DNA from: Ectocarpus siliculosus
Lineage: Eukaryota; Sar; Phaeophyceae; Ectocarpales; Ectocarpaceae
Direction of reading: 5' to 3'
DNA length: 64,000 nt
Assembly (NCBI GenBank): GCA_000310025.1
Contig: FN649732.1
Span: 1,239,951-1,303,950, forward strand
Part shown: positions 7,685-37,400 of the stretch, piece by piece
Position numbering within the stretch: the stretch's first letter is position 1
Layout of the letters: each line of letters begins with the position of its first letter
Position numbers and translations under genes: made by a program
Notes under the pieces: model-generated
The model's input: only the letters and a program-made list of their open reading frames with translations
Told to the model about the DNA's origin: nothing
Databases searched by the model: none

Positions 7685-7876
7685 ACATTTAGCGGCACCC
7701 CCACGAAGCACACCCAATAAAAGCTGCAGGTAGACACAGGTGGCGACATCTTCTACTATATCAGTCGCAAGAGCACGCACACATTTAGCGACGCCCCCAC
7801 GAAGCACACCCAATAAAAGCTGCAGGTAGACACAGGTGGCGACATCTTCTACCATATCAGTGGCAAGAGCAGCACG
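7685..7876. repeat. Tandem duplication, 96-bp period
   Basis: Two near-identical copies starting ACATTTAGCG at 7685 and 7781. The copy starts are 96 bp apart and the copies differ at only a few bases. It sits just beyond the 3' end of the copper ATPase, so the second copy could lie in its 3' untranslated region. Confidence 0.9.
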
Positions 7877-7996: not shown

Positions 7997-10900
7997 TCAA
8001 TAACACCAGACGAGGACTGCAACCAACGTTCCCCCGCACACGACAATCGGGCCTAACGTGCGATAAAAAAGGAAGGTAGGGGACACTGGGTGCTCCGCGC
8101 CACTTCCATGACATGCAACAATCGCCGCCGGTACCACCGCCAACCATCGTGGTCCAAGTTCGACTTGGCTTACCACTGACTCTCTCGGGGCTACCTCTCC
8201 AGGGCGGGTGTACAGCTTCAGGCCGAGGCTGCTCAAGACGACGAGGCTGGACGAAGAAGCCATGAACAGGGCCGCGAGGGCAGGGGTCACGCCCAGGCCT
8301 AACCACGGCTTCAGGAGACCCGCGGCCAGCGGTAGAGCCACCACGTTGTAGCTGCATGCACGCACGCCAGAGCAAGCCGAGATTGGGGGAATAAAAAAAT
8401 AGTGTAGTCGGATGCATTGTGTGCGTGGTGTTTCGGCGGCGCCACGAAACTCTGTTCAAACTGAAAGACGACGCTTACGCATCTGGTTTCGATAGCCACC
8501 CGCATACAATATATCCTTGCGATTCGATAGACAGACAGCAGCGACCTACCTGAGGGCCCAGACGAAGTTCATCCGGATGCGGCGGAATACCGCTCGGCTC
8601 AGGTGAAGTGACACCACCACGTCCCTCAAGTCGGACCGCACCAGCACCATATCCGCGGCCTCCACAGCCACCTGACGAGACAAACAAAATGTTGGGAGAA
8701 CAGAAATGTCTTGAAACTATACACTTCTACTCGTACCGGCAGTTTGATTCGAAACCCGGTGACACGTGAATGCTGTCCCTCTCCCTAAGCGAGAAAAGCA
8801 AAGCATGTCACATGGCGTGTCACATAGCCGGGCTGGTTGTTGGCACGGCTGCGGGAGAGGAGTATCCACTCTTCGTGGCCCCCACATCAGGGCTACCATA
8901 TGTTTTGGGTGGATAGCCGGTTCAATGCCGAGGGGACCAAAGGAAAGGGACCAACTGAGGGGGCCGACGGACAGGAAAGGCTGTGGGTGTGGAAAAACAA
9001 CAAAGATTACGAACATGTTACGGTCACCGCTCTCCATCAAGGCCGCCGCACCTCCAGGTGCTTCATCTCTATAGAGTCGGAAACAAAAGCAGCACCTACA
9101 CGAAAGCAAGGCCAACCTCTCTCCATCTACAATTTCCGCCGTGAATGCTGCGTGGGAGAGCTCACCTGGGTCCCTGCTCCGACGGCGATGCCAACATCAG
9201 CCATGGCCAGGGCGGGAGAGTCGTTGACCCCGTCCCCGACCATAGCAACCGCCTGTCCCATTCTCTGCAGCTCCTGAACTTTTCTTGACTTGTCTGCAGG
9301 AAGAACGCCGGCCATGACCTTCCCCCTCGGGATGCCGACAATCGCTGCCACCGCCTCTGCGGTAGCACGGTTGTCTCCGGTCACAACCCACACGCTGATC
9401 CCCATCCTGCCGTATTCGGGGATCACATCAAATATTGAGGGTGGGAGGGGAGTCTCGTGGCTAGTCCATATGCAAGTCGGCTCTATTTTTCAAGGGGAAC
9501 AAAAATGGCTGCGGGGCCATAGGCAATCATACCTCGACCAGCGCGTCGCCTGTAAACAAAAACAAATCGTGTCAAAATCGCTACCGTTTTCTGGGGATTC
9601 CTAAGTTCTTACTTTTCGCCAGCAGACTTTGTGCCGGTTCGGACTAGACGAACTGCTTGCAGGGAAAACGCCCGAAAAGGACAGCCGGTTTCTTTTTGCG
9701 GCGGCGGTGTGCTGCCTGCATCTACCTGTGCAGCGTCCCCACGGCCTCCCTGGCCTCCGGCCTAACGCTGTCCGCGACAGCCAGGACTCCTTTAGTCTCC
9801 CCGCCGCCCGCGACAAACACCACGGTCTTCCCTTGCCACTCCAGAGACGCGGCGTGCCCCTCTATCTCCGGGGGGATGCGTACGTGGTGGCGAGACAGCC
9901 AGGTCCTAGACCCGACGAGCACGAGGTCGCCCTTGGACATCTTACGGTGACGCTCGCCGGTTGTGCCGGAAGCAGACCCTGAGATGTCGGTAGAGGGGGG
10001 GGAGGGGACAGCATTAGAAGGCGTGCGCAAAACAGAGAGGTAAATAGGGGCATTGGGGGTCTGGCCAGAGAGACAGAGAGACAGAGAAAACTGCATCTGT
10101 CACAAGACCACCACCACCAACAACAACAACGACAATAACGGAAAAAATAATCATACCATCAGTCAAGCAAGGCAACGAGGCCCGGTCCTGGCTCACCCCC
10201 CCTTGATAAATGAAGCAAGACAAACGAGGCCTGGTCCTGACTTACCGCCACGGTCTTTGACGATCGTGCACGAAACCCCCATCCCCGGGGTAGACTGGAA
10301 CCCCTCGACGGCAGGCTCTAGCTTGGAAACCCCTCTTGCTCGAGACGCCTCGACGATCGCCGTGCCCACCGGGTGCTCGCTAGAAGCTTCGGCAGAGGCC
10401 GCCAGGGCTAGGACAGAGTCCTTCGTGTTTGCTGCACCCTGAAAGAACGAAAAAGAAGCGTCGACAGGAAATAAGTCGAGGTCTGCAAAGCGAGAGTTCT
10501 GGATGGAATGCGACAGCTGGGTTCCGCGGCAGGGTATTTGATTAAGCAGTCAAATACCCTGCCAAAGAAGGGTGTAGGGCACAGTTGAAAGTGTACGGTT
10601 GCTCCAGGGTCATGGTGTGCCAATACTTCGGAACACCTGTATGACTGTGGTAATATCTCGAATGGGTAGTATTTCTGTGTCATCACGTATTTTTCCTGCT
10701 ATAAGTACATATGGACGTCTCACCTATGCTCGCTTGAAAGTGGCCGTCATCCTTGCTATTCTGAAAAAAAAAAAAAATCTTCGAGCTTCAGCGGGGCTCC
10801 GAGGCACAAACCACCAACGGTCACCGTAAGCCGATCGGGCTTCCACGCGGGCCACACTACCAAAACCTTGGTCGAAACAGGGTAGACACAGCAGTAAGCC

Positions 10901-13547
10901 TTGAAGACAACGCCGTACCTGCGACAACACGTCCGTGAGGGTGGGTTTGTTCATCGTAAGCGTGCCGGTCTTGTCCAGCAGCACCGTGTCCACCTTGTGC
11001 GCGGCCTCGAAGGCCGCCCCCCCTTTGATCAGCACCCCGTTCTTAGCGCCCACCCCCGTGCCCACCATGACCGCGGTGGGGGTCGCAAGGCCCAGGGCGC
11101 AGGGGCAAGCCACCACAGTGACGGCGACAGCGGTGAGCAGCGCGAACAGGAAAGGGTCCGTGGCCGTGCTCCCTACGGGAGGATCGGCGAGCTTTCCGAG
11201 CCAGGTGGGTCGGGGGTCTTGAGAGAGCAGCGCGTACCTGATGCCGTGTGGCATGCGGAGACAGGGGAACACAGAGACGGTGGCGGAATGGGTTGGGTTT
11301 TAGAGTATACTTCGGTCGGGGCGGGGGGCGGCGCGGCGTGCTGCTTGTGCGGCAGAACCTGTTGGTTCAAGTACACGTGAGGGTGTGTACGTTTGGTTGT
11401 TTCGCATGCCGTGTCGATTGCTCGTAGGATGCTGGAGTTGGTCGACACCGATACCCTCTGAAACAATTCCCAGCGCGTGCTGATTCCATCTCGAAGTGAG
11501 TGTGCTAGCCCAAGGGCGTATGCGTGCGACCTGAAACGTCTGCGATTCTCTTGCTTTTAGCCATTTGGCGCGCGCCATGTGGTGGTACCTACTCCACACA
11601 CAAATAACGACCGTCCCCACGACCACAAGCACAACACACGCCCTCCACCAGTACGGTGCGTGGGCAAACACCTCACGCCCACATCCATCGCCACAACATG
11701 TCCAAGCCCGACCCAGCCTAGTGTAGCTTAACATCTCTTGTCGGTCGATGCGGGTCGTCCGTAATCTTACCAGGAGACAAAGGAGACCATGGCCATCGAG
11801 AGCACCACTGGGGCGAAGATCGAAGACATGCGGTCCGCGAAGGCCTGGATGGGCGCCTTGGACGACTGCGCTTCCTGGACCAACCTCACCACCTGGTTGA
11901 GAGCGGTGTCCTTGCCGACGCCCTGTGCCAGCATCGTGAAGGAACCCATCTGGTTGACGGTGGACCCGAAGACTAGGTCTCCCGCAGCCTTCGTCACTGG
12001 CATGCTCTCGCCGGTGATCTAACATACAGTACAGTAGGCGGTCGTTGTAAAGATGCGGACGGCAAGCATCGGTCGTTAGAAAGGCTTGGACGTTTGGGGG
12101 ACGAGGTGACGACGTGAAACGGGCAACGCGGATACCGCTCATGTGCCATGCTATCGCTGGGGCTATATCTAGAATAGAATGTCCAGAGAACAACCTAGCA
12201 TCCTTCCCGCTACCCTCTCTCTTGTCTGTCTGTCTCTGTCTCTGTCTCCCTCTCTCTCTTCGTGTCTTTCATTATCTCTTTAAATTTCTGTGTGGGTATC
12301 TTCCCCGTTGAGCCATAAATATATATATATATATTCTCGTCGTCTTCTGATCTCATCTCTTACCATGCTCTCGTCCACGGTGCTGTTTCCGGAGACCACC
12401 ACACCATCCGCGGGCAGCAGCGACCCGGGCTTGACCAGAAGGCTGTCCCCGACCTGAACTCGAAAGAGAGCACACCACCATTTCAACCAACGCTTGGTAA
12501 GTGTTTGGATACCAACGAAATGTAGAACCTCAGCCATCAACCTTTGGCACCACCAGCACCATCACAGCGGTGGTGGCAGACAGCTCTGCTCTTCTCGTGG
12601 TGAACAGCCCAAGGTGGATCACGAAATACCCTCGTTTGTACGTGGACACAAAGGGGCAATATGATAGCTTGTCTGCATGCTGAGACGACGCCGAGGATGC
12701 AGGTTGGTTGAATGGCTAGGAATAGCAAACCCATCTGAACATTCATTCGATGCATAGTGCAGCGTTTACCTTCTACTACGACCTTCTTCAAACTTCACAA
12801 CATTGGCGCTCTCGTGCGAGCAACAAAAACGCAGGAGCAAGAGAGCAAGAGCGAGACAGAGACGACACCGAGAGCGTACTTTTCATTTCGCATAGCGATA
12901 CAGACGCAAGCACAAGAAAGCCGTTTTGCGTCCACAAAACGCGCCAAAAAAGACATGCTTCACGCGAGATCGATCGACATCCTTCACCTGGACGAGGCCA
13001 GCGTCGATTTCCTTGTACTCCATCTCCATCTTGTTTCCTCTCCGCTTCTTCTTGAAGACCGCACCGCCGTGCCCATTGACGCTTCCCGCCACCTCGGTGC
13101 CCACGGAAACGCCTGGCGGAGGCAATAGCAGGGCCGTCCTAGGCTGGAGCTTCACGAGAGCCGTGAGGCTCGATGAGGTCTGCCCCTTGGCGATGGCCTC
13201 CATGAGCTTGCCGAGGCTCACGAGGGTGAGCAGCATCGCGGCGGTCTCGAAGGTGCACTTGGAAGGGAACTCGGGGTCGAACGAGCACTTCACCAGCAGC
13301 ACGCACACGCTGAACAGGTACGCGCTTGACGTGCCCATCACGACCAGGGCGTCCATGCCGAGGCTGCCGTGCTTGACGCCCATCCAAGCGGCGCGGTAGA
13401 AGCGTCTCCCGACCACGAACTGCACTGGCGTTGCCAGGACGAACATCACGAAGTCGCACAGCGAGATGCCCCCCAACACCGGTGGCCCCTCCCAGAGCAT
13501 CAAAACCTGCCTCGCCGCCGGTGCGTTAGCGAACGGACATCGACAAT

Positions 13548-13581
<34 letters not shown>

Positions 13582-16500
13582 GGGGAACTGCTCTAGCGCG
13601 ATGCAAAGGCACTGCAACAGTCCCTTCCCGGATTGCAAGAGAGGGCGTGGGCGTCATGTTTCCCGTCAGGATCGGTAGTGTCGCATGCCAATATGTCGTC
13701 TACCTTGTATAACAGCGGCAATAGACCGATGCCATGACAGCTTTGACCTTGTATCACTTTGACCTTGTGATACAGTAGAGGCTTCTTGCTCCATGCTCTT
13801 ACGGACTGGTTCGACGCCAAGGCACCATGTAGCAACAAAAACAAAAACACAAACAAATAATTCGTTTCTAGGGGTACCCAAAGGCATACCTGAAGCCAGT
13901 GCGCCAACAACAGAGGCACCGTAAAGAAGACTGAGAGCAAGAACAGACGCCGCCACATGGCCACGTCCTTCCGCGTCATCTCCTGCAACCGCTTCACGCC
14001 CGAGAGGGCGTCGCCGCCTAGGTCGACAGCCTTCAAAAAAAGCAGGCAAGCGCAAGAGACACATCGGAGCAGAAGAACAGACAGGTCACCAACACACGCC
14101 CGAGTCAGGTTGACCACCAAGCCTCGATCCTAAACGAAGTCGTACCCATGAGCGGTATTGACCCTTTTGGGTCTACAGGCGTCCTGACAGATCATGGATT
14201 GATCATTTGTAAGTGCTGGCGTTGTGGCATGCCATGGAGTTGCCGCCCTGTATCCCTCCACGCCAGGTGTTGGCAAGTCAATAGGCAGGTGCGTCTATAT
14301 TATTCGCATCGACCGGGCTACCCGGTGACCAATAAAAAGACGTTAGTCCCTGGAACAGCCAAAATTCGAAAATGCACACTGCTCTAAATGCGAATGCCAC
14401 CATGAATCTCTCCCCATAAGCCTTTCACAGAGACACACATCAATAGCTCCACATACATGCCCTCCCCCGAATCTAGCAAGTCACTATTGAACGCAAAGAC
14501 AGGAGGACGGCGAAAAGGGGCACTTCAAGCCCAACCAGGCCAGGATATCGTGGTATGCTGCATACCCTCCAAATTTGAAAATCGTGCACTCCCAAGATCC
14601 AGCAGTCATCATGTCAGCAGCTATACTACACAGCAGCAGCAGTATAGACGAGTCCAACATACAGCAGTGCTGTAGTAACACATACGTTATGATCATAGCC
14701 CCCCACACACCCTCGCCCGAACCTAGAGAGCCACTGATGCAATGGTAGGTGTGTGCTGGTGTGCTTGCGTGCTTGTGGGAATTGTGGGAAAATCACAGGA
14801 GCTGTAGTGAGCCGGCAGGGCTCACATTGGGGAGGGGACAGAGAAGCACAGAAGTACAAGAACCAGCCACGGGTCTACAAGCCCTCTCACTGATCATTTG
14901 AACATACTGAGAATAGAGTAGTTTAGGCGGCTTGACGACTGATCTTTTTGAGGTGTACGAGCCTAACTTGCCCTAGCGGCCGCACCGCGACCACGCATCA
15001 ACCCTTCTACGACCCTGTCTGTGCCCACCGTCCTGTCGCGGGCAGCCCTCATGGCCTATGGGTGGAGATAGCTGTTGCGTCTACAGAAGTACACCAGTCT
15101 CTTTCTGCTGTACTTCTGTCTCTCTCCCCGCACTCTCTCCTTCCGTTCTTTTTATCCGCAAAAAAAAAAAACAAGAGCTAGACTCAAAGGGGTTAATGAA
15201 CGGTACACACCTCAGTCATGTAACCGACAGTTCTACCACCCAGAAAGCATCTAGGTTCCCACGAAAAAATGAGAAAGGTTCTTCTTCCTTCCATGTACTT
15301 ACCTTGGCGCCAAACCCGAGACCTTCCACGGCGCGGATGACGTCACGCACTCCGCTCGCCTCTTTTCCGGTACCCTCTTCCATTGACGAAGGCTTGCCAC
15401 CGCTTCCGTCGCCTTTGAAAGTGATGCTAGCGCGGCCTGTGGTAACGCTGACGGAGCACGAGGCCACTCCGGGAAGGGCCAACACCGCTCGCTCCACCTA
15501 ACACGGTGGCGGCGTATTTGGGGGGTAAAGAAGCCGTGATGACGCGTCGGGAAAGGCAAGGACGGTCAAGTCACCAACAGCAGGCTCTGCACTCTGGCCC
15601 TCAAACCAAAGCGAAAGAGATGCCCACACGAAATAAACAGGCCGCAAGTTTGGCGAACAATTCATCAGCTCCTCAAACCTCGTTTACCTTCCCGCTGCAC
15701 GAGGTGCACGACATTCCGGTAACCTCCACCTCCAGGGTGTTTGGCCTACCCCCCCCCCCTCCGCCGCCCGCCTTGCTGGTTCTGACAGTCCGGAGGTGCT
15801 GGCACTTGTACCCCAGGCCGGACACTCCTCGTGCGATGTCCTCCGGGGCAAGCTGTTCCGTGTCATACTTCACCTCTGCCTGCTCACATCAAAACATAGC
15901 GTTACCCGTAAGCGTAAGAGTGAGAAGGGCCGTGGAAGGTCTAACGAGATGCATGAAAGAACCGCATGCTCGAATTGGACACGCGCCACATGACAAACGA
16001 GCGACAAGCCGAAGTACAACATCGTCTAGAACGAAAATGCACTATCGGCGACCCCCGTGCTGACGAAAGCAGCGGTTTGTGAGCGGGAACCTGCTCCCGA
16101 ATCAGCAAAAAGGCGTGACCATCGTCAAAGAGTACTTCACAAGCCTTAGCCTTTCAACCGAAACCACAAAGAGTACTTCACGAGAAAAAGCCAGCAGCAG
16201 TGAAATAGATACAGCAGTTGCCGTTGCCGTTGTCGCACCTGGCCGGCGAGAAGAGCAACGCGAACTTCCCCGACGCCCCTCATCGCACCCACGAACCGCT
16301 CCACCTTGCCCACACAGGCCGCGCACGACATGCCTTCCACGGTGAAGCTCCCGGTAGACAACACCAGCTGCCCGCCGCCGCCGCCGCTGCCGCCGCTAAC
16401 GTCGCCGCTCCGGCCTCCTTTGGCGCCACCGTTCGACGAAATGACGACGGCACTGGCACTCCTTCCCCCGTTCTTCGAGCCACGACTTTCGGTATTCAGC

Positions 16501-17492
16501 TCTCTACCGGTGACGGAAGACGGCCGTAGCTGCTGCCGTGGCTGCTTCTTGGCAGGGATAGGGGCCCCTCCATTCACACCGGCCGGTGGTGGTGGTGGTG
16601 GTGATGGTCCCGGCGCCGCGGCGCCGCTCGCATCGAAACCCACCGTCACCACGGCGTCGACAAGGGTCCCGGTGGACAGCAAAACCCCCCCTCCGCTGCT
16701 ACCCCAGACCCTGGCCCTCTTCTCGGCGAACGAGACCTCCGCGCGCGACACTCCCGCGACGTTCTCGAGAGCCTGCCGCACGGTGGTGCCGCAGCTGTTC
16801 TGGCACATCATGCCGGAGACCTCCAGCTCAACGGCAGGGGCTTCGGCTGCCTCGAAGCCGATCGTTTCGATGGCGTCCACGAGGTCCGCCGACCTCAAGC
16901 CCACCCCTTCGCTGCCGCCACCGCCCCACACGCGCGCTCGCTTCTGCGCGAACGAAACCTCGGCGCGGGAGACGCCGGGCACGGCCTCAAGGGCCTGCCG
17001 TACCGTCGTGCCGCAGTTCTTCTGGCACATCATGCCCCCGACCGCCAGCAAAACGGCCGGAGCAACCTCGGCCCCAAACCCGACCCCTTCCACAGCAGCA
17101 ACTAGGGCGTCCTCGGTCCCGCCGTTAAGCCAGACCAGGGCCCGTCGGTCGGCGAAGGACACCTCCGCCCGGTGCACCCCGGCGACGGCCGCGAGAGCGG
17201 CTTGGACCGTGGTTCCGCAGTTTCGCTGGCACATCATACCCTCCACCTCCAGCACCACGTCCGGCAGCACCATTGCGCCGAAACCGACGCTCTCCACCGC
17301 CCCGACAATAGAGTCCAACAAGGCGGGGTCGCCGCCGGCGCTGCTGCCGTCGCCGGTCCACACTCTCGCGCGGCTTTCGGCGAAAGACACCTCCGCGCGG
17401 AGGACTCCGGGGACCGAGGTCAGAGCCTGCCGTACCGTGCTGCCGCAGTTGTTCTGGCACATCATGCCCTCGACGGCTAAGACGACGACCAT
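7997..17492 (-). CDS. ATP7: P1B-type Cu(I)-transporting ATPase with six HMA domains
   Basis: Exports Cu(I) across an endomembrane or the plasma membrane using ATP; family ATP7/RAN1/CopA. Thirteen exons join in phase: 17492-16239, 15879-15688, 15497-15303, 14030-13890, 13506-12988, 12453-12364, 12018-11771, 11237-10919, 10438-10246, 9978-9726, 9406-9166, 8671-8550, 8351-7997 (1373 aa). HMA domains 1-4 carry GMMCQxxCG (Cys 12/16, 88/92, 156/160, 230/234), separated by a ~100-residue Gly/Ser-rich linker from HMA 5 (GMSCAAC, 390/393) and HMA 6 (GMSCTSC, 476/479). The catalytic core is complete: TGES (799-802), CPC (924-926), DKTGT (Asp968), SEHP (1006-1009), [12 protein letters not shown] (from 1192). 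The Cu(I)-site residues are YN (1257-1258) and MxxSS (Met1286). The start is the first Met after an in-frame stop at 17535; an upstream exon is possible. The last ~80 residues are not conserved in the family. Confidence 0.95.
10528..10563. repeat. Perfect 14-bp stem hairpin in ATPase intron
   Basis: GGCAGGGTATTTGA and its exact reverse complement are separated by 8 bases (TTAAGCAG). It lies inside the intron between 10439 and 10918. Confidence 0.9.
12197..12335. repeat. Simple repeats in ATPase intron
   Basis: A TCTG/TCTC-rich tract (about 12218-12265) and an (AT)n run (about 12317-12335), both inside the intron between exons ending at 12364 and starting at 12018. Confidence 0.8.
13548..13581. 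repeat. (ATC)n microsatellite in ATPase intron
   Basis: About eleven ATC units just upstream (on the minus strand) of the exon starting at 13506. It is intronic despite giving a poly-His open frame on the plus strand. Confidence 0.9.
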
Positions 17493-19675
17493 CGTGGTTC
17501 TGGCGCTGCTGCCGCCGTACAGCAGTGCCGATGCCTATTCCTTGTTGCTGACGCCGCCGGCGGTCAAAACCTCTCTTGTAACTCGCCGCTTGTCGTCGCC
17601 GCCGCAATCACGGCGAACGTGAGTCCGAGCCTAAAGGTCGTCGAGGTGCCGTCAGGCCCGGCGCGCTCATGCACCACTACCGTCCCCCCGAGCTGGTCGA
17701 AATAGCGGCCGCCCTGTCTGATTCCACGTCAAGACTCCCGACGTCCTCGCACACCGACGCCAATACCAGGCGCAGGAGGTGTGGTGTTTGAGGTACAAAC
17801 CGATAGTCCTGTTGGATGCACGCAGGAGGGTCGTGCGGACGTTGAAAGGGAGATGGTCACATTGGTGTCGGTGCGCATGGCATAGCAGCGTGGTGCGTGT
17901 GGCATGACTCGAGATGAGGGACGTGATCTGTTGGTGCATTGCGAAGCCTATCCACAGTATTTAATGCATTTATTTTGCGCTGGTTGCGACTGCCAAACAA
18001 GGCGAGCGGTGTCCGCCTTGATGTCAAGGCAAGAAAAAAAACACCACACCCACTACCATTCTGTCTTCTCCCGTGACCCCCCCCCCTCACGGGGTACCAT
18101 ATCATAAAAACCTGTAAAAGTGTTGCCAATTTGTGCATAGGAAAGCCGACAGAGACGAAATCAACGTATTTTCATTGATCAGCCCGTTCGCGTGGTGATT
18201 ATTGGAGTATCGATCAAGACAAAAAAAATGGCCAAAATCGCTCTCGTCTCGGCACCAGCAAGCTGGGCTGTATCAGAGAATGCTCCGAGCGCAAATTTCA
18301 CTCTGGAAGGAGACAGAATTATGGGTCTCCCCAAGAGCTTCTCGTGGGGCGCACACCATCGCGGCATTCTACAACTTGCTTCGCGCTTCGCCCTTTTTGT
18401 GTGCGCTTGTGTACTTGCACGGCACGCTGCTCGGACGTGACTTCCAAGGGATGATTGAACCACTACTTTTTGCTTGTGACAAAACGTTAAACGCAAAACA
18501 CAGATCCCATACAGTCAGTTTCTGTGCGACAATAACAAGGGGAGCAAACAAGTGCTGCGGGTGTTTTCGCGGAGGGCATGAAACAAAAACAGAGACACAC
18601 TCCATGCACTCCTTCTGTAGACAGAGTATTCTGCACTCCGTGCTCCTGATGGGTACAAAAAATGACGGTGTTGCAGATTTTTCACGTGAAATTGGGGAAA
18701 CACAGCAGTAGCCCTTGGTATGCCCTCATAAACACGAACCGCGACTGAGCGTCCAGTAGCTCTTGGCCTAAGCTCCCCAAGGCAAACGGGCATGTGCAGC
18801 ACCGTACCTGCTGCCTATTGCTATCCAGGCGATCATGAGAGGGCGACAGGATACGGCGGGCAAATAAAGCTATGGATGTGTAGATAAGGCATGGCGACAG
18901 CCCCCTTGGGTGTCTAGCAGCTTGGCACACCCCTTTTCGGAGAGCCTGGTGGGTACATCGACCACCCTCGCCCATCTATCCTGACCAGCGTGATGGCAGC
19001 AGGCACCTACTACTATCGTCATATGGACGTATACAGCAGTAGTACATACAAAAGTCCCCCGCTCAACCGCCGTGCTTGTTTTGTACCGGTAGTCGTCACG
19101 GTTTCTTGGGAGGCCAAGGAAGGTCAGTGACCCCATCCGTGCAAAAGTTGGACACTGACAGAAAAACGATAGAGTAGGCTTTACCGGGGAAGACGTCTTC
19201 TATCAAGCACGTGCTATGCGATGGCCACGCTTTCCCCGCTGGACTGCGTGCTTTGCACATCATAAACTGCCCTGCTACGTACAGCAGTAGATCGACACAA
19301 AATGATGCATACCTCGGCACGCGCAGATTTGTCAATCCGTCCGCTAACTTCAGGCAACGCGCTGTACCATCAAGTGCCCTCCAGCTTGCTGCTGAAACTC
19401 GCTGTCCCCGCAGAGATCTAGATGAGCAGTTCCGCACCCACCAGCTAACGCCCGGCAGGTCTTGTCGCGGGCTGGCTTGGAGTGCGCTACGGCGTGTGTG
19501 CCCCTGCAACCCCTCAAAGCTCTTGCCCTCTCTTCCTCTGACTCTCTCGTCTCATAAAAAGGTTCTCGGCCCTTTCCGGACATTGCGAGGTTGCGCCGCA
19601 CCTGTGTCATTTCAACCATTTTTCACCACAGCACCAAACCTCGTCCACACCTCGTGCGGCTATGTACCACGCATC
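17493..19675. other. Divergent intergenic region (ATPase / PUS7-like)
   Basis: About 2.2 kb between two genes transcribed away from each other, so it should hold both promoters. I see no clear TATA box or other recognisable element. Open frames are present, but none is convincing. One continues upstream from the PUS7-like start codon to 19211, discussed under that gene. Confidence 0.5.
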
Positions 19676-22600
19676 ATGACCTCCTCCTCTTCGCTGAATG
19701 TGATTGGTATCGAGGATGACATGTTCATGGGCGAAGCTCCTGGTTTCGGTGGCTGTATCAAGCAGGTGGCGGCTGACTTTTTGGTAAGCGTGATACGCTC
19801 GCTTGATGCATCGTCAACCTGTATGCTAGCAGTGGTTTACACCAGTGTTATCAGACATGTGTCTCTCATGCAAATGTGCTGCGCTTGCACCGCCCTTCAA
19901 TGCAGCAGGTCTTGTCCTGATTAACGAGTTGGTTTGCAGAGGGCGGGTCCAGAGACAATACCAGAGACACCATAATTGCTTTATGTGTGCGGATCGATCG
20001 CTCTTGCTTTTCGGCATTGTGCGGGCGCTGCTGCAAGCACGCACAACAGCTTCCAGCAGCAGCTGTGTGCAATCACGGCGTGTATGTGAACGAGATCCTC
20101 CGAACACATGTAGGTAACCAAATTACCTATCAATTAGCACGCAAGCCATGTCATCAGCTGCTCATTCCGAGCTGCTGCACTTGAGCCTGTGGCATTCCAC
20201 AAATTCCAGCACGAATTTCATTGGAAGGAACCGCCAGTGCTCCCATCTTTGCTACGCTCCGCTTTTCGTGGTAGAGGAACCGTACCAGCTTGAGCTATGT
20301 CGAACCTTCCGCGCATGTCCTATGGGCACTTGCGCACTCTCTGCAGGTGAACGAAATCGATTCGTCGGGCCGGCTGGTGGAGGCATCAAGCCTCACCCTT
20401 CCTCCCGCGCCCCCAGCGCCAGTGTCAGCATCTGGGCGACCCATACCATCAACGGCGGCCGGGAATACCATGGAACAGCAGTCCAACCGCAGCAAGAGTG
20501 GAGATCATGGCGCTGGCTCTTGCACGCGGGTGGGGCAGGCGGAAGATGACTCTGAGCTCGACTGGGCCCAAGAGCTGCGGCGGTGTCTAGCGGGGTCAGA
20601 GTCCGATTTTTCGAGGCTAGCAAGGCTCGACGCCGCAGCGAGAGGAGCCTCAGCACCAGCCCAAACGGCACCGTCGCCAACGCCAGTACCAGCAGTAGCG
20701 GGAATGGGCTCAGCCGAGAAGAACGAAGGAATGACACTCGCTGGGGATGTGACTGGGCAGGAAACTGGAGCTTCTGAAGCAAGGGAGCAACAATTGGCGG
20801 AGGCGGAGAAGGGAGAGACGGACGGCGCTGTACTTGTATGGGTTCATGCCGGGCAGGGGGCGGACAAGGCCGCTCGGGCCAGGGTGCATCGTGCGGTACA
20901 GGAGACATTTCCATTCATCAAGGTGATGAACGGCTACTTGTATATCAGCCGTGTTTCTTTGAGTATGCGAGAGTTAAATTTTTCTTGAGGATAAATCCAG
21001 CGGGGTTAGCCATCATGGTGAGCTAAAAATGTTGCTTGGCTCTTGTTCGGCGTGTGTGTACATCTCTTGCCGTCATTGTGATTTGGAAGACTACAACTGA
21101 GAAGGCCCCCGATGGGAGCGTTACGGTGGTGTGCACCCAGGCATCGCCACTTCCGGCACTTCGTGGACTCTTATCGGGACCGGATTTAGAGGCTTTACAA
21201 AGGTAAGATATCCTGCAGAGATCGGTAGTCTTGTCGCCGTGTGTTCCTGTTTTAGCGTGCCGACGATGGTTGAACCCATCACCGAAGCGTCGCATGCTCG
21301 TCTTGAAGGTGGACGATTGCCTCGCAAACAGTTATCACGAGCCATCCCACACGGATGCGGCTTCGGCTCGACCCACCGGTCTCGGCAGGTCCGCCGTCCG
21401 ATATTGCCTGTCGGCGTGTATCCCTTGACACGGTTCATTTTTAACATCTTCCCAGGCTGGTCAACCGAGGGCCGAGCGGGAAAGGCGCAGATTCAGGCGT
21501 GACTCTGTCATCCGACATGGACCGAGCGAACAGAACCCTGGTTCATCGGGCCATTTCAGGTACATACTGCTGTTCTTGTTCCTTTTGCTCTCTTGAGAAT
21601 GCGGGTAGCATAATGGCCATCGCTCAGGAACAGGGCAGCGGCGGCGATTCCACCTTTACTGTTGAGGCTAAGCTACGGACAGGTGTCTCGAAGTCCACCC
21701 GATGTGCACCGACTAACGGCGGGAGTCCCGGGGCCGAACCCGACGATGCCATCCGAATATCAAAATATCAGTTTTGGCCGTTTTGCTGAGGCGCAACTGC
21801 CGATTTTTCGGCCAAAGCCGAGACTTACGCACGCATGTCTATACCCTATTTTTACGTGGTGCGATCGGCCTTTCTTTCGTCTTGATGGGAAGCCGCTGAT
21901 ACGCTGAGGGATTCACCGCGTGTGCTAGCTAGACCTCTGTGACGATACGGAACCCCCGCGGAACAAACAGTCGTTGCGTGGAAAGGCCGAAGATTTACGA
22001 GATCCTGTCGTGCTTGGCTTCCACCCCCCCTGTTCCCCCCGAAGAGGCGTTTCCGTATCTGCAGACCAAGACGTGCAACGACCCGAAGGATCCAAGTTCG
22101 CAGCGGGTGTCCGTATTCTGGAGCAAGCGCAGGGGCGGTGGCGGTGGCAGAAAGCGGAAACGCCAGGGGTTTGACTCCCACGGCGGCAACGATTCAGGGT
22201 GAGAAATCGGTGTGGCCCCGACCTATCAAACACGTTGGCACGAGCGAGGGAACCTTCGGCTAAGTCGCAGGGCTTAGAATAGTGCTCGAGCGGCTGATGG
22301 GCGTTTTTCGCGTCAGCCTGAAAGGTCTGCGGCTGTCTGTACTGGTAGAAAGGGGGAAAGGCTCGGCTCGCACCAGGGGCGGTCTTAGCCATGTATGTCT
22401 CAAAATGATGCACTAGGGGCAGTAAGGTACACGCCTCCGCCAATGTGTGATCGGGGTACGCAACACACGAGCACCTATCCTATGTACAAGCCGGAGCTTT
22501 ACTCCAAACCTCCCCACCCGTCATTCACCTTGCTCCGCCCATGCACAATACCTGTGACAGCCGCAAATGTGGGGGCGCTAACGAGGGCTCCGGAACACGA

Positions 22601-25600
22601 TGGGTTCGGTTTGGCCTCCGCAAAGAAGGGCGCGAGCACCACGTGACCGCGTTAGCGTTGTCCAAGGTACCCTTAGTTCCTCATGCGGTTGTACCGCTGT
22701 CTTGTCTTGAATGGAGCGGTTTGTTTGTTGAGCTGGTGAACTGGGTAGTAAACGTGCATGATTGGCCATGCGTTGGTGTTCGCGAAAATGATTACTTCGA
22801 CGTCAGAAGCTTGGATTGATCGGTTTGATGTCGTGGATTCACTATTTCGGCTGGTCTGACGTAACTCAAGTACATCCTTTCTTTATTCTCTCTCTCCTCC
22901 CCTCCCCCCCCCCCTCTCTCCCTCTCTCTCTGGGTTCTTGATTCGTTCGTTTTTTGCCCGATTGGCTCATCGAGGTTTGCGTTTGCCCAATTTTGTACCG
23001 GCGTCGTAAAACCGTTTTCGGACTCCATTTTGACACAGAGCCTACGGCTAGGTGTAAGAGCTCCACTTAGGTTGACCCCTTTCATATCTATTTCGCTCTC
23101 TTTCGGCGTACAATCCGTGCCTCGTTGCCACAGGCGCTGCGCGTCCCTTTGTCGGCGTTGTCCTTCGGAGGCATCAAGGACAAGAGGGCCATCACCACGC
23201 AGGCAGGTTTCAACATGCCCCGTTTTGCTGTGCTGCTATTCAGCCATCAGTTCATATCCACTGAGTTGCCACCGGCTTGAACGTTTTTTCGTGGCAAGAT
23301 CATGGCATGTGCGGCAGACTGAGAGGGTAGAGAGGTCTCAGCGGAGATAACCCTTGTGCGTGACCCCGTGTTTTCCATAGTACCTGAGGGAGAGAGGCCA
23401 GATCGGTGTAGAGACTACTTATACACGATATGGAGGGAGCACAAGAAAACAGTTCGTGCCGCGGTAGACGGCCTTGTCGGTGCCTACACATGTTACTCTA
23501 CTTCTACAGTGCCACAACTTTCCTTGGTTTCCTTTGCCTTGTGTTCGGTGCAGTGAATCGAAGGTATGTTTATTGGACCATGCCGTGTTCTGTTGTTGTT
23601 AGGGGGGGGGGGCTGTTGAGAAGCTCCACCAAGACTACGCTCACCGCCGGAGTGTTTTGTAAGCACCTTAGTCTAACATTGAATGGGTAGAACCCTCCAG
23701 TGTACTCGGAGAGCAATGCAGCATGGTTTTCGTTCATTGGCAGCAAAGCCGCACTTTTGGATGGAGGCCATCTATCGCGTTGAGCAGAGTACACCAACCA
23801 CCAACGGACAAGAACAGCGTTTCACCCCTTTGGCTCCCATCATACCAGAATGAGAAGGCGTCGACTTACATAAAGATAGTCATTCAGGTTGGCGAGAGCT
23901 TTGCCATGGCTGGTCGGAGGTGATCACGAGCCGTTGTTCCTCTTCCTGCACGAAGTACGGCCCTAATACGTGACCATTTCTTCTATGTTTTTTATATTAT
24001 TTTTGGCCCTCGATTCTTTCGAGACAGGCGTGCATCGTGAAAGGGGTTCCGCCAAGAAAAATCCTGGAAATCAACGGCTCTATTCCCGGAGTTACCGTTG
24101 GCAACCTATCATACTGCGCTCGTGGCCTCAAGTGAGTACAGGGCTATGGGGGATGAGCAGCGAGAGGCAGATGGCGTAACGACCTTTTGTTTTTGAGATT
24201 GATGTGTCTAGCCGAAGCAAATCACCGAAATCTACCCCACTGTCATCGTCTGGATCACATAATCGCTTCTTGAAACTTCGGGCAGCAACCCTGCTTCCCT
24301 TCCCCTCTCCGTTCTTCGGTGTTTCAAATTCCGACGACCGCCCCGACACAGTTTGGGGGAACTGTCTGGCAACAAGTTTTCGGTCGTAGTGCGAGGCGTC
24401 ATGGTGCCGGGGGCGGCTGTGAAGAGCTCCCTTGAGGAAGCATGCTCTAACGGTTTCATAAACTTCTATGGAACACAGAGGGTTGGGTCGCCGCTTGCCG
24501 CGGCTCGAGGACAGCCGCTTCCGTACCAGGCAAGGGATTCCGACCGTTTTTTTCGTTTTTGGGAAACAGTTTCATTCGTGAGAGCGCGCAATGAATCGTG
24601 TCATGAGTGATTAACACGAGGGGTGTCATTTTGTTTCGTTGCAATCATACCAATTACTGTTTTCGTTCTAGTGAAATGGCATCCAGACTTGTTTATTACC
24701 TTGCTAGGGCGTTGTATTGACGCCCCAACCTTTTAGGAGACCAGTTTTGTCGGGCTTCCAGACGAACATTGAAGCCGGGTAGGCAACCAATATCGCCGCA
24801 GCCCCAAAATCCTGAAAGACACACCCGTGTCTCATGAGGCGGTGCAAAGTCCCATCTCTGAAGGCAGTACCACGAGAGACTCAACAGGAGCAACGATGAC
24901 ACGTCGTGATGACAGTTCGAGCAGCACGAGTGGACGGGGGACAATGGAATAAGTAACGGCAGCACAACTAGACCAGGAACCGACCGCTTAGTGTCGTGTT
25001 TTTTTTTTTTCTGATACTTCTTTCAGATCGGCAGACACGTTTTGGCCGGCGACTGGGAAGCAGCGGTGAAGAAAATTCTACAGCCCAGAGACAACGATCC
25101 ACCCTTCCTGCACTCGGCCCTCGCTGAGTTTTTTGAGGGCAAGATCACCGCAAAAGATTGCGCAGCGCGCGTGAGGGGCCGAAAGTGAGAAGCATAGCTC
25201 CACATGAATGTAGCTGGGTTTGCGGCGCATGGTGTGTTGACGATGACGGATACTAGTCGGTGTTGCTGTTTGCGATTGCCCGCTGATACCTTCCCAATTC
25301 CCGAGCCAAAGCCTAAACGAAGCCGCTTGCAAGATTGCTTTCGGCTTTCTGTCTGCCCTGCCTTGGCGTTCTGTGGTCATTTATGTTTTTTCGTCATTAT
25401 CGCTACCGTATGATATGAACTGGCAGTCGCTGTCGTCAACGAAAACCCATATCCCGTTAGAGGGGTCGACGTGGTGGTGAACTGTTCACCCCCTTTCATT
25501 TTCATCTGGCTAACCTTCGCAAGTATTGGTTCATGGGGATAAAGGTGGTGTTGCATACCGTCTGTTTCACGGATGGTTTTTCCTTCCCTTGCCCCATGGG

Positions 25601-28388
25601 ACTGTGCTCGTTGCCGGTCTCAACTCGTGGTCCGAAGAAGAACGCATCTTCCCGGGTGGAGAACGTATTTGTTTATTCGTACCTTTAGACTGTGACGGCG
25701 AGATTTTTCCTTCAAAGGGTACGGAGGAGATTCTGGAAAAGTAGAAGCAAAGCTAACGTTTTCTAAATCTGTACATACATCTGCCAACATGCCTCGTGCT
25801 GTTCGTTTCCCATCTACGGTAGCCGACTGTCCACGGAGCGATTAGTTCTGCAGGGCTTGGTTCGCTACGGCGCTTCCGCTTTCCAAGCCGCTATTCAGGT
25901 TTGCGGAGATTATTTTTAGCTGGCTTGGCTTACACTACGGTTTTGCCAAGCCGCTTTTACGGTCGAGCTTCAATGTCCGTTCAAAAGGGGCTCATTTTCG
26001 TCCTATTCGGGTGTGTACCAACGGCGAGACACCTACAATCTCACGTGCTCTATTCCACTGGGAGCGATATTTTTTCCGGCCTGTGGGCGCTCGACGACTA
26101 TCTGCGGGTTTTGATCGAGAACCCTTGTGCAAGGAGCACTAGCCTCACTCTTTGCCTCCCGCCGATCGAAACAAAAAGTGCTACTATTCAGCAAGCACGC
26201 CTCCGGCGCGTAATTTCTTTGGCGGCACGAAGGACTAACGATCTCCTGGTCTTCCCCTCGCCCCCCCACGCGCAGTGCGTCCCTTTTGGCATGCGCACGA
26301 TGTGGGTGCACGCCTACCAGAGCCATGTTTGGAACTCCTTGGCCTGCGCGAGGATTCGCCTGCTCGGGTCTGAAGCGGTACCCGGCGACCTCGTACTCCC
26401 GGCCGACGTTTGCACCGCCACCGAGGAAATCGGGGAAATGTCCCCTGCATTTACCGGTGCTGTGTCGGCTGGGACCGAGGATTCACTCCCATCTTCTTGT
26501 GCTGCAAGAGCGCCTGCTGCAAGAGAGGATGGCGAAACCGAGGAAACATGCCCCGGGAGGCACGTCAACGGACTGCTGTCCTCTACCACTGCTGCGGTCG
26601 GCGACGGTGCTAAGGGGAGCGGGCATGAGGCCGGGGATGGTCACACCGGTAGGGAATCTGCCGGCAGCAGTTCCGTTGCGAGTGGCAGAGGGAGAGGGCT
26701 GGTTACGGCCTTGACGAGTGAGACGATACAGGCGTTCGCGTCCGAGGGTGTGACACCTAGGGACTTGCTGCGACGAGTCGTCCTACCGCTGGCCGGAACA
26801 TCGATTCAGTATCCCCTCCATCAGGTAGGATTGACCCACAACAGTATTTACTGTCCCCACGACAGCATCTTCAGACAAGCACGCGTGCACCCCCTACGCG
26901 ATCGCTAGAAGTTGGAGCTCCAAAACGGTGGGACGTTGAGTCTAATTGGTTTCGTCAACAAACTAACCGACCCTCGCTTGTACTCGCCAGCCTCGGACCG
27001 TAGAAGACTGTAGTTATGAGGCTGAAAGTGCCCTGCTTGGCGCCACCTGTATGTCTCCCACCGTGTAGAGCAACTACAATCGTCGCGATTCGCCTCTATA
27101 CGAAGATTTTTGCTGGCACGAGCTTGACTACTGTGTTGAGGCACTTGCCAGCGTGCGTCTCACGGTTCGGTTCCGATCCTCTGTGTCGGCCGTGCGTCGA
27201 TCAGGTCCGCACACCAGCCGGATCGTCGCTATTATTTCCAGGCGAACACCCCAGCTTTAGCCCCCAGCATACTTTCCCCCGCCGGTCCCCGCGCATTTCC
27301 GCGCCCCGAAAAGTGTAGTATTTCGCCCCGGAATAAAGAGAAACCTTGACCCCTCCCTCTCCGCTCTGGAGACCGAACAAGTGCCCGCTGACTTCCTACC
27401 AAAGCCGCACCTTGTGCTCTTCGTTTCGACGGGATGTTCGTGCATATCTCTTTCTTTCTCAACCGGTAGGGCGCGGCAAGCAGCGCAAGTATTGTAGGTG
27501 GGCCGTCTACCATTACCACTATTGGCGGCGAGCTTTCATCGTGTGCTTCCTAGTCTTGAGCACTCCGGCTCCAACGGCAACATAAACCCCGCCTGCCCTA
27601 CCCGGCCGACGAACCGCAAGCAGATCGGAAGCATGTACCGGCAACGGCTCCAGGAAGATGGTGTCGATCCTCTCATGTGGCCGGCACCAACACCACCCTT
27701 CAAAACACATTTTCCTCGACTGCCTGACGGGACAACACGTGCGACAGCAATTGACGCGGCGGGGTTAACGGCATCCCAAGCACCTCTGACCGGTGCCCCT
27801 TGCCTGTCGCGGGGGATAGGAGGTGATGTTGGCGGCAGGGACAGCACGGCGGCGGAAACCGTGACGGTGGCGACTGAGGAGGCGGTCGCGTCCTCTACGC
27901 TAGTACCAAGGGGCGCCTACCGCCGGCTGCTGTGCGTGCCTGTGGATTCGTCTTGGGAAGCGGTGGCTCCGTTAACGAAAGCCGACGATCCAGAAGAGGT
28001 TCGAATCAAACGGTCGTCCATGTCTGGCCGCGGCCAACCAAACGGGACCACCCCTCCAGGTGATGCGGCTACTGCGCCTGGTGATAAAGGGAGAGTACCA
28101 TTAAAAGACGGGCATAGTGATGGCTCGCAAGTATCGGGGGATGGTGGGCAATCGGGAGGGTTTGCAAAGGATAGAGGCGGGGCAGATCTTAAGGCTGCGT
28201 CTGCCAACGACGTGTTGACCGACGTTCGCCTCACGTTCACACTGCCCCCCGGCAGCTTCGCGACCATGTGTCTTAGGGAAGTAATGAAGAGGAATGATGA
28301 TGTTGGTTGGGGGTCACGGGGTGCAATGGAGGAACCACAGGAGGAGGGGGGGGTTGCGGACACCATTGCGGTGGACAGGACGTTGTAG
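19676..28388 (+). CDS. PUS7: TruD/PUS7-family pseudouridine synthase
   Basis: Converts uridine to pseudouridine in tRNA and some mRNA; nucleus or cytosol. Twelve exons join in phase: 19676-19783, 20347-20922, 21090-21202, 21971-22198, 22561-22666, 23134-23202, 24028-24131, 24352-24529, 25027-25184, 25823-25898, 26276-26824, 27624-28388 (1009 aa). Family landmarks occur in order: GFGGCIK...DFLVNEI near the N-terminus, GGIKDKRA with the catalytic Asp (about 393), LGELSGNKF (about 436), GFINFYGTQRVG, a Tyr-Gln/IGR junction, HAYQSHVWN, GDLVLP, and LPPGSFATMCLREVM near the C-terminus. It is longer than human PUS7 because of low-complexity insertions at about residues 45-200, 610-690 and 775-950. 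Exons 3 and 4 are the least certain. Introns 6 and 8 seem to start with GC. The open frame continues 155 codons upstream of the chosen ATG, so a longer N-terminus cannot be excluded. Confidence 0.93.
22884..22931 (+). repeat. Polypyrimidine (CT/C) tract in intron
   Basis: A long C/T-only run with a 12-13-base C stretch, inside the PUS7-like intron between 22667 and 23133. Confidence 0.85.
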
Positions 28389-30029: not shown

Positions 30030-30970
30030 CGAAACTCGTACCATGAGCTTTGTCAATCTCACACCAGGCAAAAAGGGCTTTGAGTGTGAAGCAGACGAGT
30101 GCAAAGCAGATAAACCAATCCCGACGAAAAAAAACAGAAAAAAAACAGTCCCACAGGATACGTGCACGACGGCAAGCCCGATGATTTCGTAATGTCACAC
30201 CAGGCTCACAAGGGCTACAACTGTGAAACAGGACAAAGCAGAGAAACCAACCAATTCTTCGGGTTCAAATCTTGATCCCGACGAATAAAACCAGACAGAT
30301 ATAGTTCCACAGGATACATGCCCCACGGCAAGCCCTAACTTTTCGCATTCTCACGCCAGGCTTAAAAGGGCCATGACTGTGAAGCAGAAGGACAAACGTA
30401 CATTATACAAGTACAATCACAAGTTTGGGTTCCTCGTTAACCGGACGAAAAACAGCGGACAGAGATAGTCCCACCGGATACGTGCACCACGGCAAGCCCG
30501 ATATTCTTGCATTCTCACACCAGGCTTAAAAGGGCTTTAGCTGTGAAAGGATAAAGCAGAGCAGAGAAAATCACCAACTTTGGATTCAGTAATTGATCCC
30601 GACGAAAACAAGCAGACAGAGATAGCCCCACAGTATACGTGCACCACGGCAATTCCGATGTTCATGCAATCTCACACCAGGCTGAAAAGGGCAATAACTG
30701 TGAAAGGATAAAGCAGAGACAATCACCAACTTTGGATTCAGTAACTGATCCCTACGAATAAAGGCAGAGATAGTTCCACGGGATACATGCCACGCGGCAA
30801 GCCCGATATTTTCGTAATGTCACACCAGGCTCAAACGGGCGATCACTGATCACTGTGAAACAGAAGGACAAAGTAGATACAATCACAAGTTTGGGTTCAA
30901 CTCTTGATCCCGACCAATACAAGCAGACAGAAGTAATCCCATAGGATACGTGCACCGCAGCAAGCCATAT
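30030..30970. repeat. Degenerate satellite array, ~148-165 bp units
   Basis: About six and a half diverged tandem copies. Each contains the landmarks CACAGGATACGTGC, ACGGCAAGCCCGAT, TCACACCAGGCT and GATCCCGACGAA in that order. The CGGCAAGCCC-type landmark recurs near 30170, 30322, 30490, 30645, 30795 and 30957, so unit length drifts by indels. It lies about 460 bp beyond the 3' end of the two-pore channel. It has no coding potential and no short identical repeats with unique spacers. Confidence 0.85.
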
Positions 30971-34400: not shown

Positions 34401-37400
34401 TTGCAGTATATGAAGCAGTACAGTATACAATACACGGTTCGACGGAGATGTTGGCGATGGAAAGAGGATCGCTCAACTATCCCGGCGATGAACTGCTCGC
34501 TGTGGCCTGGGGTGCAGCTCGTCAGCCTCACCAGAGAAGGCGAGACCGCTCACCAGGGGGTGCATGGCCGCCGACCGTACCGGTATGATCCACACTTGAT
34601 CGATCGTTCACCTCCACACGTGTCACACTGCATGCCAAATTGGTCTATATTCCCCCTCAACATGTCTTCCTGCATACCTTTTCTTGTTTCGATTTCAACA
34701 CATCTTTGTTTTCTCGTTAGCTCCGACATGTTCCAGAACCTCAAAACACGACATGCCGTTCGTTGTAGTCGGTCATGGTTCGCTAATTCCCGTGACCGCC
34801 ACCACCCCACCCACGATGACCGAGAGCCTTTTTCTAATGCTCCTTACCGTTAAAGTTGAAAGCCCAGTAGTTGGACTGTCCGTATGACGTATCCTGAACA
34901 ACAAGCAGAGGGAGTCCATACAGCGCACGCGGTACATAGCACGAGCGGGGAACAGATTAGCAGCACCAACAGCAGGCAAATGTCCAGACCAAAACATACG
35001 CTTCCTTACAGTCGAAGATGGGCACCAACAAAATGCAACCAAAGCAACAACCGCAGAAACAACTACCACGTTTTTGTGGTGGTTTTTACCAATCGTTTGC
35101 TTTACAACCTTGGAGTGTCGACGTCCGTCGCCGCGGAGATGCCGAATCATGATGCTCATCGCAAGAGCAGCGTCAGTGATCGGGGCTGTTGCAGCACAAG
35201 ACCCACGCCTCACAAAACGCCGCAAGACCCATCTTGAAGCAGCGAAAAACACACCACACCAACAACAAACGGGAGGGTACACCTTTGCATTTCCTCGGCT
35301 CATTGTTACAGAGAGCAATCCGACGCACAGCGCCAAAAGGCCTTGATGGGTCCATACGCTTAAGAAGGGGGGTGATTGCAGGGAGAGCACCGGCGGCCCA
35401 CGGCTTGCGCATTCCTTGATGCAATCATCACCACGCGCGTTTGCAAAACCAAAAGGTGGGGGTACGTAGACAGGGGGGCTTGCTTCCGAGTCGTCGGCCA
35501 ACCTTGAGGTGCTCGTTGGTTGGGCTGTCGGGGTCGGAATGAACCAGGCCTCCGAAAAGCTGCACTCCGAGCACGCAGAAGGTGAACCCGCAGACGAAGA
35601 GCAGCATCATGAACTGAAACGCCTCCGGTGCTTCGAGACAAGTGTCGGGTGGGCGGAGAGAGGAAGGGGGTTGCAGGTTGTACGAAGAAGAGATGGGGAC
35701 GGGGTAGGGGTAGCAGGTGTCATCGGAGTGATGCCAACGAGGAATGAAATCGCCATAAGCGAGCATCCGATTTTGTGCCAGCACATGGCAATGTCTACGA
35801 GCATCACCTCGGGTACATGTAACTGTTATCGTCACCAATAACATCTCGCGGGAAGCCGCGCATGTACCAAACTCCGCAACTCGTTCATAAATACACATAC
35901 CATTCCAAACTCTCGAGAAACGATACGTGCGGAATGCCATGCCAACGCTCTGAGTGAAAGCGAAGTGTCAAGTCTGGGAATAAAAACGTCGCAAGACGGC
36001 CTGAACAAATCGTACCAAGGTGCTTGAATGTCATTTTGGTGACTCAAATGCTTGTGTATTTTTCTTCCGTAGCCCAACACGGCAACTAGGAGACTCAGTC
36101 TTAGCGATCCAGATGAGGAGTAACGTACCGATGTTGCCGAACGTAGTCATGACGATCCTCATCTCAGGCACAGCCACCATCAGGCGGGCGACTCGCAGCA
36201 GTCGGAAGGTGACGAAGTAGACCACCACGTTTTGTAGGTTGAGAGTCGTAGAGATGGTCGTGGTCTTGAGCAGCTGTTGGTGTTGTGGTGTTGTGGTGCA
36301 GTGAAAGATTGGCAACACGGCGAACATGCAGCACATAAACTTTCGTCGCTTCAACATATCTTGCTACTGCGCAAGAGAAACACGTGTTCCTTCAAGCGCC
36401 CCTCATCTCACCCGTGTAACAACTTGTAATAATATCACAATAGAGGTTGAAGAACACCAAAACAAACACCACAATCAAATATTTCAACAATAACCCGCCC
36501 ATGCTAAATGAAACCCGCATCCGACTGTCCTACTAAGCGCTCTTCACACGTCGAAACGCCACCCACGTACAATATCTTGTATTATTTTCGATCTCTGGAG
36601 AGAAGGGCAAAACTGCCGCTAACTCACGAGTTCAGTGAAAACACCTCCGAGGGTGATGACCCCGTCGAACCGGTTGCGATTCTTGGACCAGTATCCTATT
36701 TCATCAACGCATCCCCAAAAGAACGAACGCCCATGCAGCGCGGCACAAGGGAGAAGAATTGGCAGGCATGTACAACCGGTGGGGCTGGTAGTTGGACCGC
36801 GGTCGCGCCGGTAACTGTGGATTCCGTTCGTACGAAAGTGTCCTCGCACAGGCCGTCCATGCCATCTGCGTTAGGATTCCAGGTTCTTCATGCGATGCAA
36901 CACGAGTGCAGCATTGTCTGGGAAGAAATATTGGTCAGGCTTTATTCTAACCATGTATCGTACGCCGTCCCACGGGCAAAACAAAACATGCTTTGTATGG
37001 GCCGTGTACGGGGACTTCCTACCAAACGCCGGGACCGTCACGGCGAAGCCCTTAGCACCCAGCGCGACACAACGCATACCCAAGCAGTTTCCCTTCGTAT
37101 CTTGAAAAACAAGAAACCTCATCACCATCAACCATCGATAGAATGGCGACTTAGTAGCTCACCGTTCCAGCCAAACACGAGAATCTTGAGGGTCATTTCC
37201 ACCACGTACACCCAGCCGAGCAGAGAGTTGAGTCCGTGATCCGTCCCCTCCGCTTGTAGCCAGGCGTTCTGGTTCTCCAACATAAATAGAAAAAACCGCA
37301 AGGTAGAAAGAACAAGAGGAAGGCCCTCGACAGTTCAGAACGATTTTCATGTTGAACACGTTCCAACGACCACATTTTTATCAAAGGAGAAGTTTCGGGT

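Follow-up and report, generated by a model that had tools for sequence, protein, structure and literature searches.

The presence in one predicted copper pump of four HMA domains whose metal-binding cysteines are separated by three residues (Cys-X3-Cys, or CxxxC), together with two domains that keep the canonical CxxC spacing, raises the question of whether the additional residue marks a distinct role for these domains or is a change of spacing without functional meaning.

Six HMA domains and two cysteine spacings in one pump gene

The gene contains introns and lies on the minus strand, extending from approximately 17.5 kb down to 8.2 kb of the window (the entire 64-kb stretch of DNA analyzed here, the G+C content of which is 49.8–58.2% per 4-kb block). 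Together with the introns and the style of the genes, this composition would suit a stramenopile such as a brown alga. Its first exon (16239–17492, minus strand; 1254 bases, phase 0) opens at 17492 with the first ATG in the frame, is followed after 16239 by a GT donor, and encodes HMA1 to HMA4, a low-complexity linker and the first part of HMA5. The four variant domains, all on the minus strand and delimited by translation and alignment (for HMA3, which was also modeled, by structure prediction as well), are HMA1 (17259–17492; GMMCQNNCG at 17442–17468), HMA2 (17061–17261; GMMCQRNCG at 17214–17240), HMA3 (16839–17057; GMMCQKNCG at 17010–17036) and HMA4 (16629–16835; GMMCQNSCG at 16788–16814). 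The metal motif of HMA5, GMSCAAC (16314–16334, minus strand), is a canonical CxxC, and this domain is completed by exon 2 (15688–15879, minus strand; AG acceptor, GT donor, phase 0; 26.7 bits against the PF00403 cut-off of 24.8), which also encodes the start of HMA6 with the motif GMSCTSC at 15697–15717. The remainder of HMA6 is found in exon 3 (15303–15497, minus strand; AG acceptor, GT donor, phase 0), whose PF00403 score of 24.8 bits equals the cut-off. Splicing was carried out for these three exons, and the later exons were located by motif and read as separate pieces. Joined in phase 0, exons 1–3 translate into four Cys-X3-Cys domains followed by GMSCAAC and GMSCTSC, which is the six-domain N-terminal organization of the ATP7 type with the variant sites distal and the canonical sites proximal. 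The linkers within HMA1–4 consist of a few residues each, so that the block measures about 290 residues, and about 90 low-complexity residues lie between HMA4 and HMA5.

The four variant motifs read on the minus strand as the original prediction had stated, but the interval that it assigned to the array (16780–17492) omits the C-terminal half of HMA4, a domain that reaches about 16629. The Pfam HMA model PF00403 matches exon 1 in five stretches at 132.2 bits (cut-off 24.8), and the GMxCxxC motif, present in both HMA5 and HMA6, is absent from HMA1–4, where all four domains are Cys-X3-Cys. A DNA pattern for GMMCQ-x2-CG, with up to 2 mismatches allowed, finds 4 matches in the 64-kb window, all with 0 mismatches (100 shuffles: mean 0.01, largest 1); an assembly error would have had to occur four times at one place. 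When a profile of the variant domains was compared with the PDB, one extra residue was seen between the cysteines in each of the three alignments examined. The cysteine pair is retained in every variant domain (8 of 8 cysteines) within invariant surroundings, GMMCQ..CG, and in the alignment of HMA1–4 the motif itself gains no acidic or histidine ligand. The model DUF6286 (PF19803) also exceeds its cut-off on the exon 1 region (16149–17534, minus strand; 38.6 versus 35 bits, three stretches) and weakly matches a Bacteroidota HMA protein; the match may reflect a relationship between this family and HMA or a cross-match.

The signatures of a P-type ATPase core, viz. TGES, CPC, DKTGT, SEHP and GDGxNDxP, are each found on minus-strand exons downstream, as are the membrane-site residues YN and MxxSS (the latter as MASSS), which are P1B-1 motifs. 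In order along the gene, and all on the minus strand, these exons contain the first membrane segments (motif span 13333–13952, over two exons; TIGR01511 62.7 bits on piece 12886–13548), the actuator domain with LLPADG and TGES (11977–12453, also over two exons; PF00122 80.2 bits on 11770–12018), the CPCALG transport motif with the DKTGTLT phosphorylation motif (10955–11113; PF00122 33.1 bits on 10727–11299), the SEHPVG nucleotide-binding motif (10355–10384), the TGDN and hinge motifs (9184–9384; PF00702 56.9 bits on 9130–9489), and the last membrane segments with the YN and MASSS metal-site motifs (8198–8350; TIGR01511 36.4 bits on 8000–8455), where the recognizable gene ends. TIGR01511, the model for copper-translocating ATPases, ranks first or second on all five of the core exon pieces scanned, each taken singly and each scoring below a cut-off of 397 bits that applies to the whole protein. 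The identification of the protein as a copper ATPase is thus borne out by its P1B-1 motifs and by the Pfam and TIGR01511 matches, and the gene is best read, from its architecture and signatures, as encoding a six-HMA, ATP7-like P1B-1 ATPase that probably exports Cu(I).

Other features of the window include a tandem repeat with two copies of 96 bp immediately beyond the last recognized pump exon (7685–7875), pieces resembling a TruD/PUS7-type pseudouridine synthase in head-to-head orientation relative to the pump gene (20275–28385, plus strand; all Pfam scores below their cut-offs), a 157-bp unit repeated in tandem about 5.4 times (30120–30966), and a piece resembling an ion-channel domain (35431–35967, minus strand; Ion_trans 20.4 bits versus a cut-off of 25).

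Age of the four copies and predicted fold of HMA3

Comparison of the six pairs among HMA1–4, over 45 aligned codons per domain, gives synonymous differences of 50–71% (pS 0.50–0.71) and nonsynonymous differences of 12–22%. In view of this high synonymous and low nonsynonymous divergence, the copies are old and have been held under purifying selection; a recent duplication, as originally suggested, is ruled out by the synonymous divergence.

Structure prediction for HMA3 with AlphaFold, based on a 33-row alignment, gives an HMA fold with a mean pLDDT of 83.1 in which helix 1 starts from the second cysteine, at residue 15, whereas in a CxxC control domain (from locus L006; pLDDT 97) predicted with the same rows helix 1 starts from residue 12, right after the first cysteine. 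The additional residue therefore seems to lengthen the metal loop, which we take as a hint only, the loop block having a pLDDT of 78 and the alignment consisting mostly of CxxC rows. The first Foldseek matches of the HMA3 model are domains of PacS, NmerA, ATP7B and HMA7, with TM scores of about 0.8; the best structural matches are copper or mercury HMA domains, and complexes of rice HMA domains with effectors are also among the matches. Fold modeling, suggested as a check in the original prediction, accordingly returned, at modest confidence, an HMA fold of the usual kind whose metal loop accommodates the extra residue.

A lengthened loop could favor a different soft or borderline metal, viz. 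Ag, Zn, Cd or Hg, in which case the array would sense or buffer one of these metals on a copper pump. The later start of helix 1 relative to the CxxC control agrees with such a change of preference, as does the MerP model, which matches exon 1 at 126.7 bits (cut-off 92.55), a score that is summed over the repeated domains. Other NCBIfam models also exceed their cut-offs on this exon (viz. UxxU_metal_bind, several CopZ models and TIGR00003), and since whole-protein scores add up over repeated domains, none of these matches is taken as family membership; those to MerP reflect general HMA similarity. The P1B-1 copper signatures of the core and the lack of any acidic or histidine ligand added by the motif also argue against a changed metal preference, which we consider improbable.

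The presence of the rice complexes among the structural matches is relevant to a further explanation, that HMA1–4 are metal-free structural or protein-interaction repeats, plant HMA folds being known to serve in protein interaction, or that exon 1 is not used at all. The first of these is opposed by the retention of all eight cysteines in the face of high synonymous divergence. As to the second, exon 1 contains the first ATG together with the beginning of HMA5, and a transcript without it would lack both the start of the protein and an intact HMA5; the 1254 bases of the exon are divisible by three, which leaves room for skipping from an unseen upstream exon. Taken together, we regard this explanation, in either form, as very improbable.

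Cys-X3-Cys HMA domains in bacteria and their relationship to the array

A scan of genome contigs identified 35 related loci, of which 32 read CxxC at the match and two, both from Bacteroidota (L033 and L034), read CxxxC. In the remaining locus (L011:4977–5195), a bacterial HMA-like domain reads GMTGNLC and has lost the first metal cysteine; it was counted under neither spacing. Profile A3, built from 18 rows (4 from the window and 14 from Bacteroidota, four near-identical Bacteroidota domains having been dropped), matches 179 of 198 Bacteroidota genomes at E <= 1e-6. Thirty of these Bacteroidota loci were read, with 18 of them (L100–L117, E <= 1.6e-21, each from a different genome) showing CxxxC and the other 12 CxxC, the first match below the 18 having an E value of 4.3e-16. 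At least 18 of the 198 Bacteroidota genomes thus contain a CxxxC HMA domain, a lower bound that is biased in that 13 of the 18 genomes (including G001) had contributed to profile A3. All 18 domains lie in open frames of 119–207 aa, which are too short for a pump, and a loose pattern picks out a lipobox-like N-terminus in 17 of the 18 proteins; one Bacteroidota protein of this kind (L158:2776–3384) scores 65.5 bits with PF00403.

In other bacterial groups, no CxxxC was found among the best-scoring 30 loci from 200 Pseudomonadota genomes (29 with CxxC in the center and one, L080, with CxxC elsewhere in the locus), the best-scoring 12 from 199 Bacillota genomes or the best-scoring 12 from 188 Myxococcota genomes, the loci of the latter two groups all reading CxxC. 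For the phylum to which L007 (a Victivallales record) belongs, 194 genomes were scanned, and the best-scoring four loci comprise three with CxxC and one with CxxxC (L132), a Cys-X3-Cys HMA protein outside Bacteroidota with an open frame of 92 aa. A pattern match at position 8378 of L030 and an opposite-strand match in L118 were set aside as unlike HMA. Among the best-scoring bacterial loci that were read, the X3 spacing does not occur in any frame of P-type-ATPase size. A search for viral relatives by DNA pattern yielded one match in viral contigs (L001), the frames of which are unlike an HMA protein, and a viral profile scan yielded 12 stretches, none of which proved to be a relative by tblastn.

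The gene for the Bacteroidota CxxxC HMA protein often adjoins a gene for an EamA-like transporter (recognized by Pfam in L158, L159, L163, L165 and L034, and by eye in L162 and L033; not adjacent in L160 and L164), and GldD (L159) and COX15/CtaA (L034 and L161) are also encoded nearby. These surroundings look like an old conserved neighborhood.

The finding of Cys-X3-Cys HMA domains in Bacteroidota weakens the idea that the motif is peculiar to the array. The search for the spacing elsewhere, envisaged with the original prediction, has therefore located it in at least the Bacteroidota genomes counted above and in one genome of another phylum, with no example in an ATPase; as for the motif being a common and already characterized HMA variant, its presence in bacteria is established, and no characterization was found in the portions of the literature that were searched.

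The relationship of these domains was examined in a tree of 50 rows (6 from the window, 15 Bacteroidota X3 domains and 29 CxxC domains) and 68 columns, from which the loop residues and four near-identical Bacteroidota domains had been removed. This tree was made by a quick method, 21 of its 47 inner branches are open, and its CxxC rows are strict-pattern catches only, loci L037–L069 being omitted. In it, HMA1–4 form one side of a branch with SH-aLRT 90, not starred, and they look like descendants of one variant domain, so that the common ancestry claimed in the original prediction survives where the recency did not. The Bacteroidota X3 domains stand apart from those of the window in the best tree, and a joint clade is not rejected (p-AU 0.20); neither is a grouping of HMA1–4 with HMA5–6 in the same tree (p-AU 0.16).

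These results also bear on the explanation that the spacing change is neutral, HMA1–4 being ordinary Cu(I) acceptor and transfer sites in which an extra residue became fixed a single time and was passed on by duplication. A single origin suffices for the four domains, the fold of HMA3 is predicted to be unchanged, and the single-copy domains of Bacteroidota indicate that the spacing can persist in different contexts. However, GMMCQ..CG has stayed invariant over four old copies while HMA5 and HMA6 stayed CxxC, and a neutral change sits poorly with the lack of X3 in ATPase-sized frames among the best-scoring loci noted above. We consider neutrality rather unlikely, though it deserves to be kept in mind.

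A putative sensor or buffer block and comparison with known systems

The layout of the pump, in which a flexible linker joins the four distal sites of variant spacing to the canonical pair next to a Cu(I)-type core, fits a regulatory or buffering block joined to a pair of exchange sites. The chances seem to us about even that HMA1–4 are a modified Cu(I) sensor or buffer block and HMA5–6 the exchange sites of an ATP7-like pump. Under this sensor or buffer reading, HMA1–4 would have arisen long ago through tandem duplication of a single Cys-X3-Cys domain; they most likely bind Cu(I) through both cysteines and would act as a copper-responsive regulatory and buffering block rather than in transfer; the linker would hold this block apart from HMA5–6, whose CxxC sites would exchange copper with a chaperone and with the membrane entry site, and the extra residue may alter affinity or exchange rate and, as originally suggested, could change the Cu(I) geometry. 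A sensor or buffer role, as also proposed originally, gains plausibility from the analogous cases of ATP7B and LpCopA: a study cited in PMC11970713 suggests that the first three metal-binding domains (MBDs) of ATP7B are autoinhibitory, and that paper's own data assign a sensing role to the MBD of LpCopA. Work cited in the same paper suggests that, among the isolated domains, direct delivery to the M-domain of an altered ATP7B is confined to MBD6; all six isolated MBDs are, however, described as able to deliver copper to wild-type ATP7B (PMC11970713), which counts against a clean split between sensing and transfer. The Bacteroidota CxxxC HMA proteins, being single-domain and outside any pump, lend no support to a pump-regulating role. 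It is conceivable, but on balance doubtful, that in a eukaryotic pump lineage the Cys-X3-Cys HMA domain arose as a second type of metal-binding domain and has been retained in a distal array devoted to copper sensing, whose affinity or exchange rate is unlike that of the CxxC sites in the protein. If this is true, "sense" and "transfer" sites are naturally separated within the protein. The domains of most pumps look alike, which makes their roles hard to separate, and here four domains with one spacing and two with the other occur in one protein, so that the question can be asked by adding or removing one residue per site. The array is a well-kept variant of a known domain in a known pump, of more interest as a natural experiment on sensing versus transfer than as a new motif.

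Among known systems, the pump most resembles the ATP7A/ATP7B type (TIGR01511, P1B-1), with which it shares six N-terminal HMA domains and a Cu(I) core with CPC, YN and MxxSS. Every HMA domain of ATP7B is CxxC, and ATP7B chains are the top PDB sequence matches, and in both aligned chains each of the six domains reads CxxC; the present pump differs in having CxxxC in four of its six domains and in setting this block apart with about 90 linker residues. A published overview of copper ATPases in eukaryotes likewise gives GMxCxxC for each sub-domain in the part consulted (PMC3308323). Within Ectocarpus siliculosus, the copper-induced P1B-ATPase Esi0023_0054, reported to have an N-terminal HMA motif (PMC4108028), is by description a possible relative of the pump, and the available part of that report mentions no CxxxC array for it. 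In the portions of the literature that were searched, no Cys-X3-Cys HMA array was found in algal or protist copper pumps.

The CxxxC spacing is described in several other metal proteins. It binds copper in Sco, where a distant histidine completes the site (PMC7558416), binds Cu(I) in Csp3 (PMC5171941), and is required for function in CutF, for which copper binding has been proposed (PMC8456105). None of these is an HMA domain, Sco being thioredoxin-like and Csp3 a four-helix bundle; copper binding by CxxxC in Sco and Csp3 counts for the sensor or buffer reading, and the different folds, with the additional histidine of Sco, count against it. In bacterial CadA, two CxxxC motifs are reported to flank a His-rich stretch (PMC7283390). 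The Bacteroidota proteins of the GMTCAVGCAKTIE type share both the HMA fold family and the X3 spacing, and differ in having one domain each and no ATPase, in their 20–33% identity to HMA3, and in their separate position in the best tree.

The nearest precedent is fungal CrpA. This copper-detoxification ATPase and Candida Crp1 are described as carrying, at the N-terminus, a pair of CxxxC motifs ahead of three GMxCxxC HMA domains (PMC6981102), while the primary paper on fungal CrpA gives CxxC for the same two motifs (PMC5447758). The likeness, drawn from these partly conflicting descriptions, lies in variant elements placed distally and classic ones proximally if the former spacing holds, and the difference lies in the distal elements of CrpA and Crp1 being termed motifs, where those of the present pump are HMA domains.
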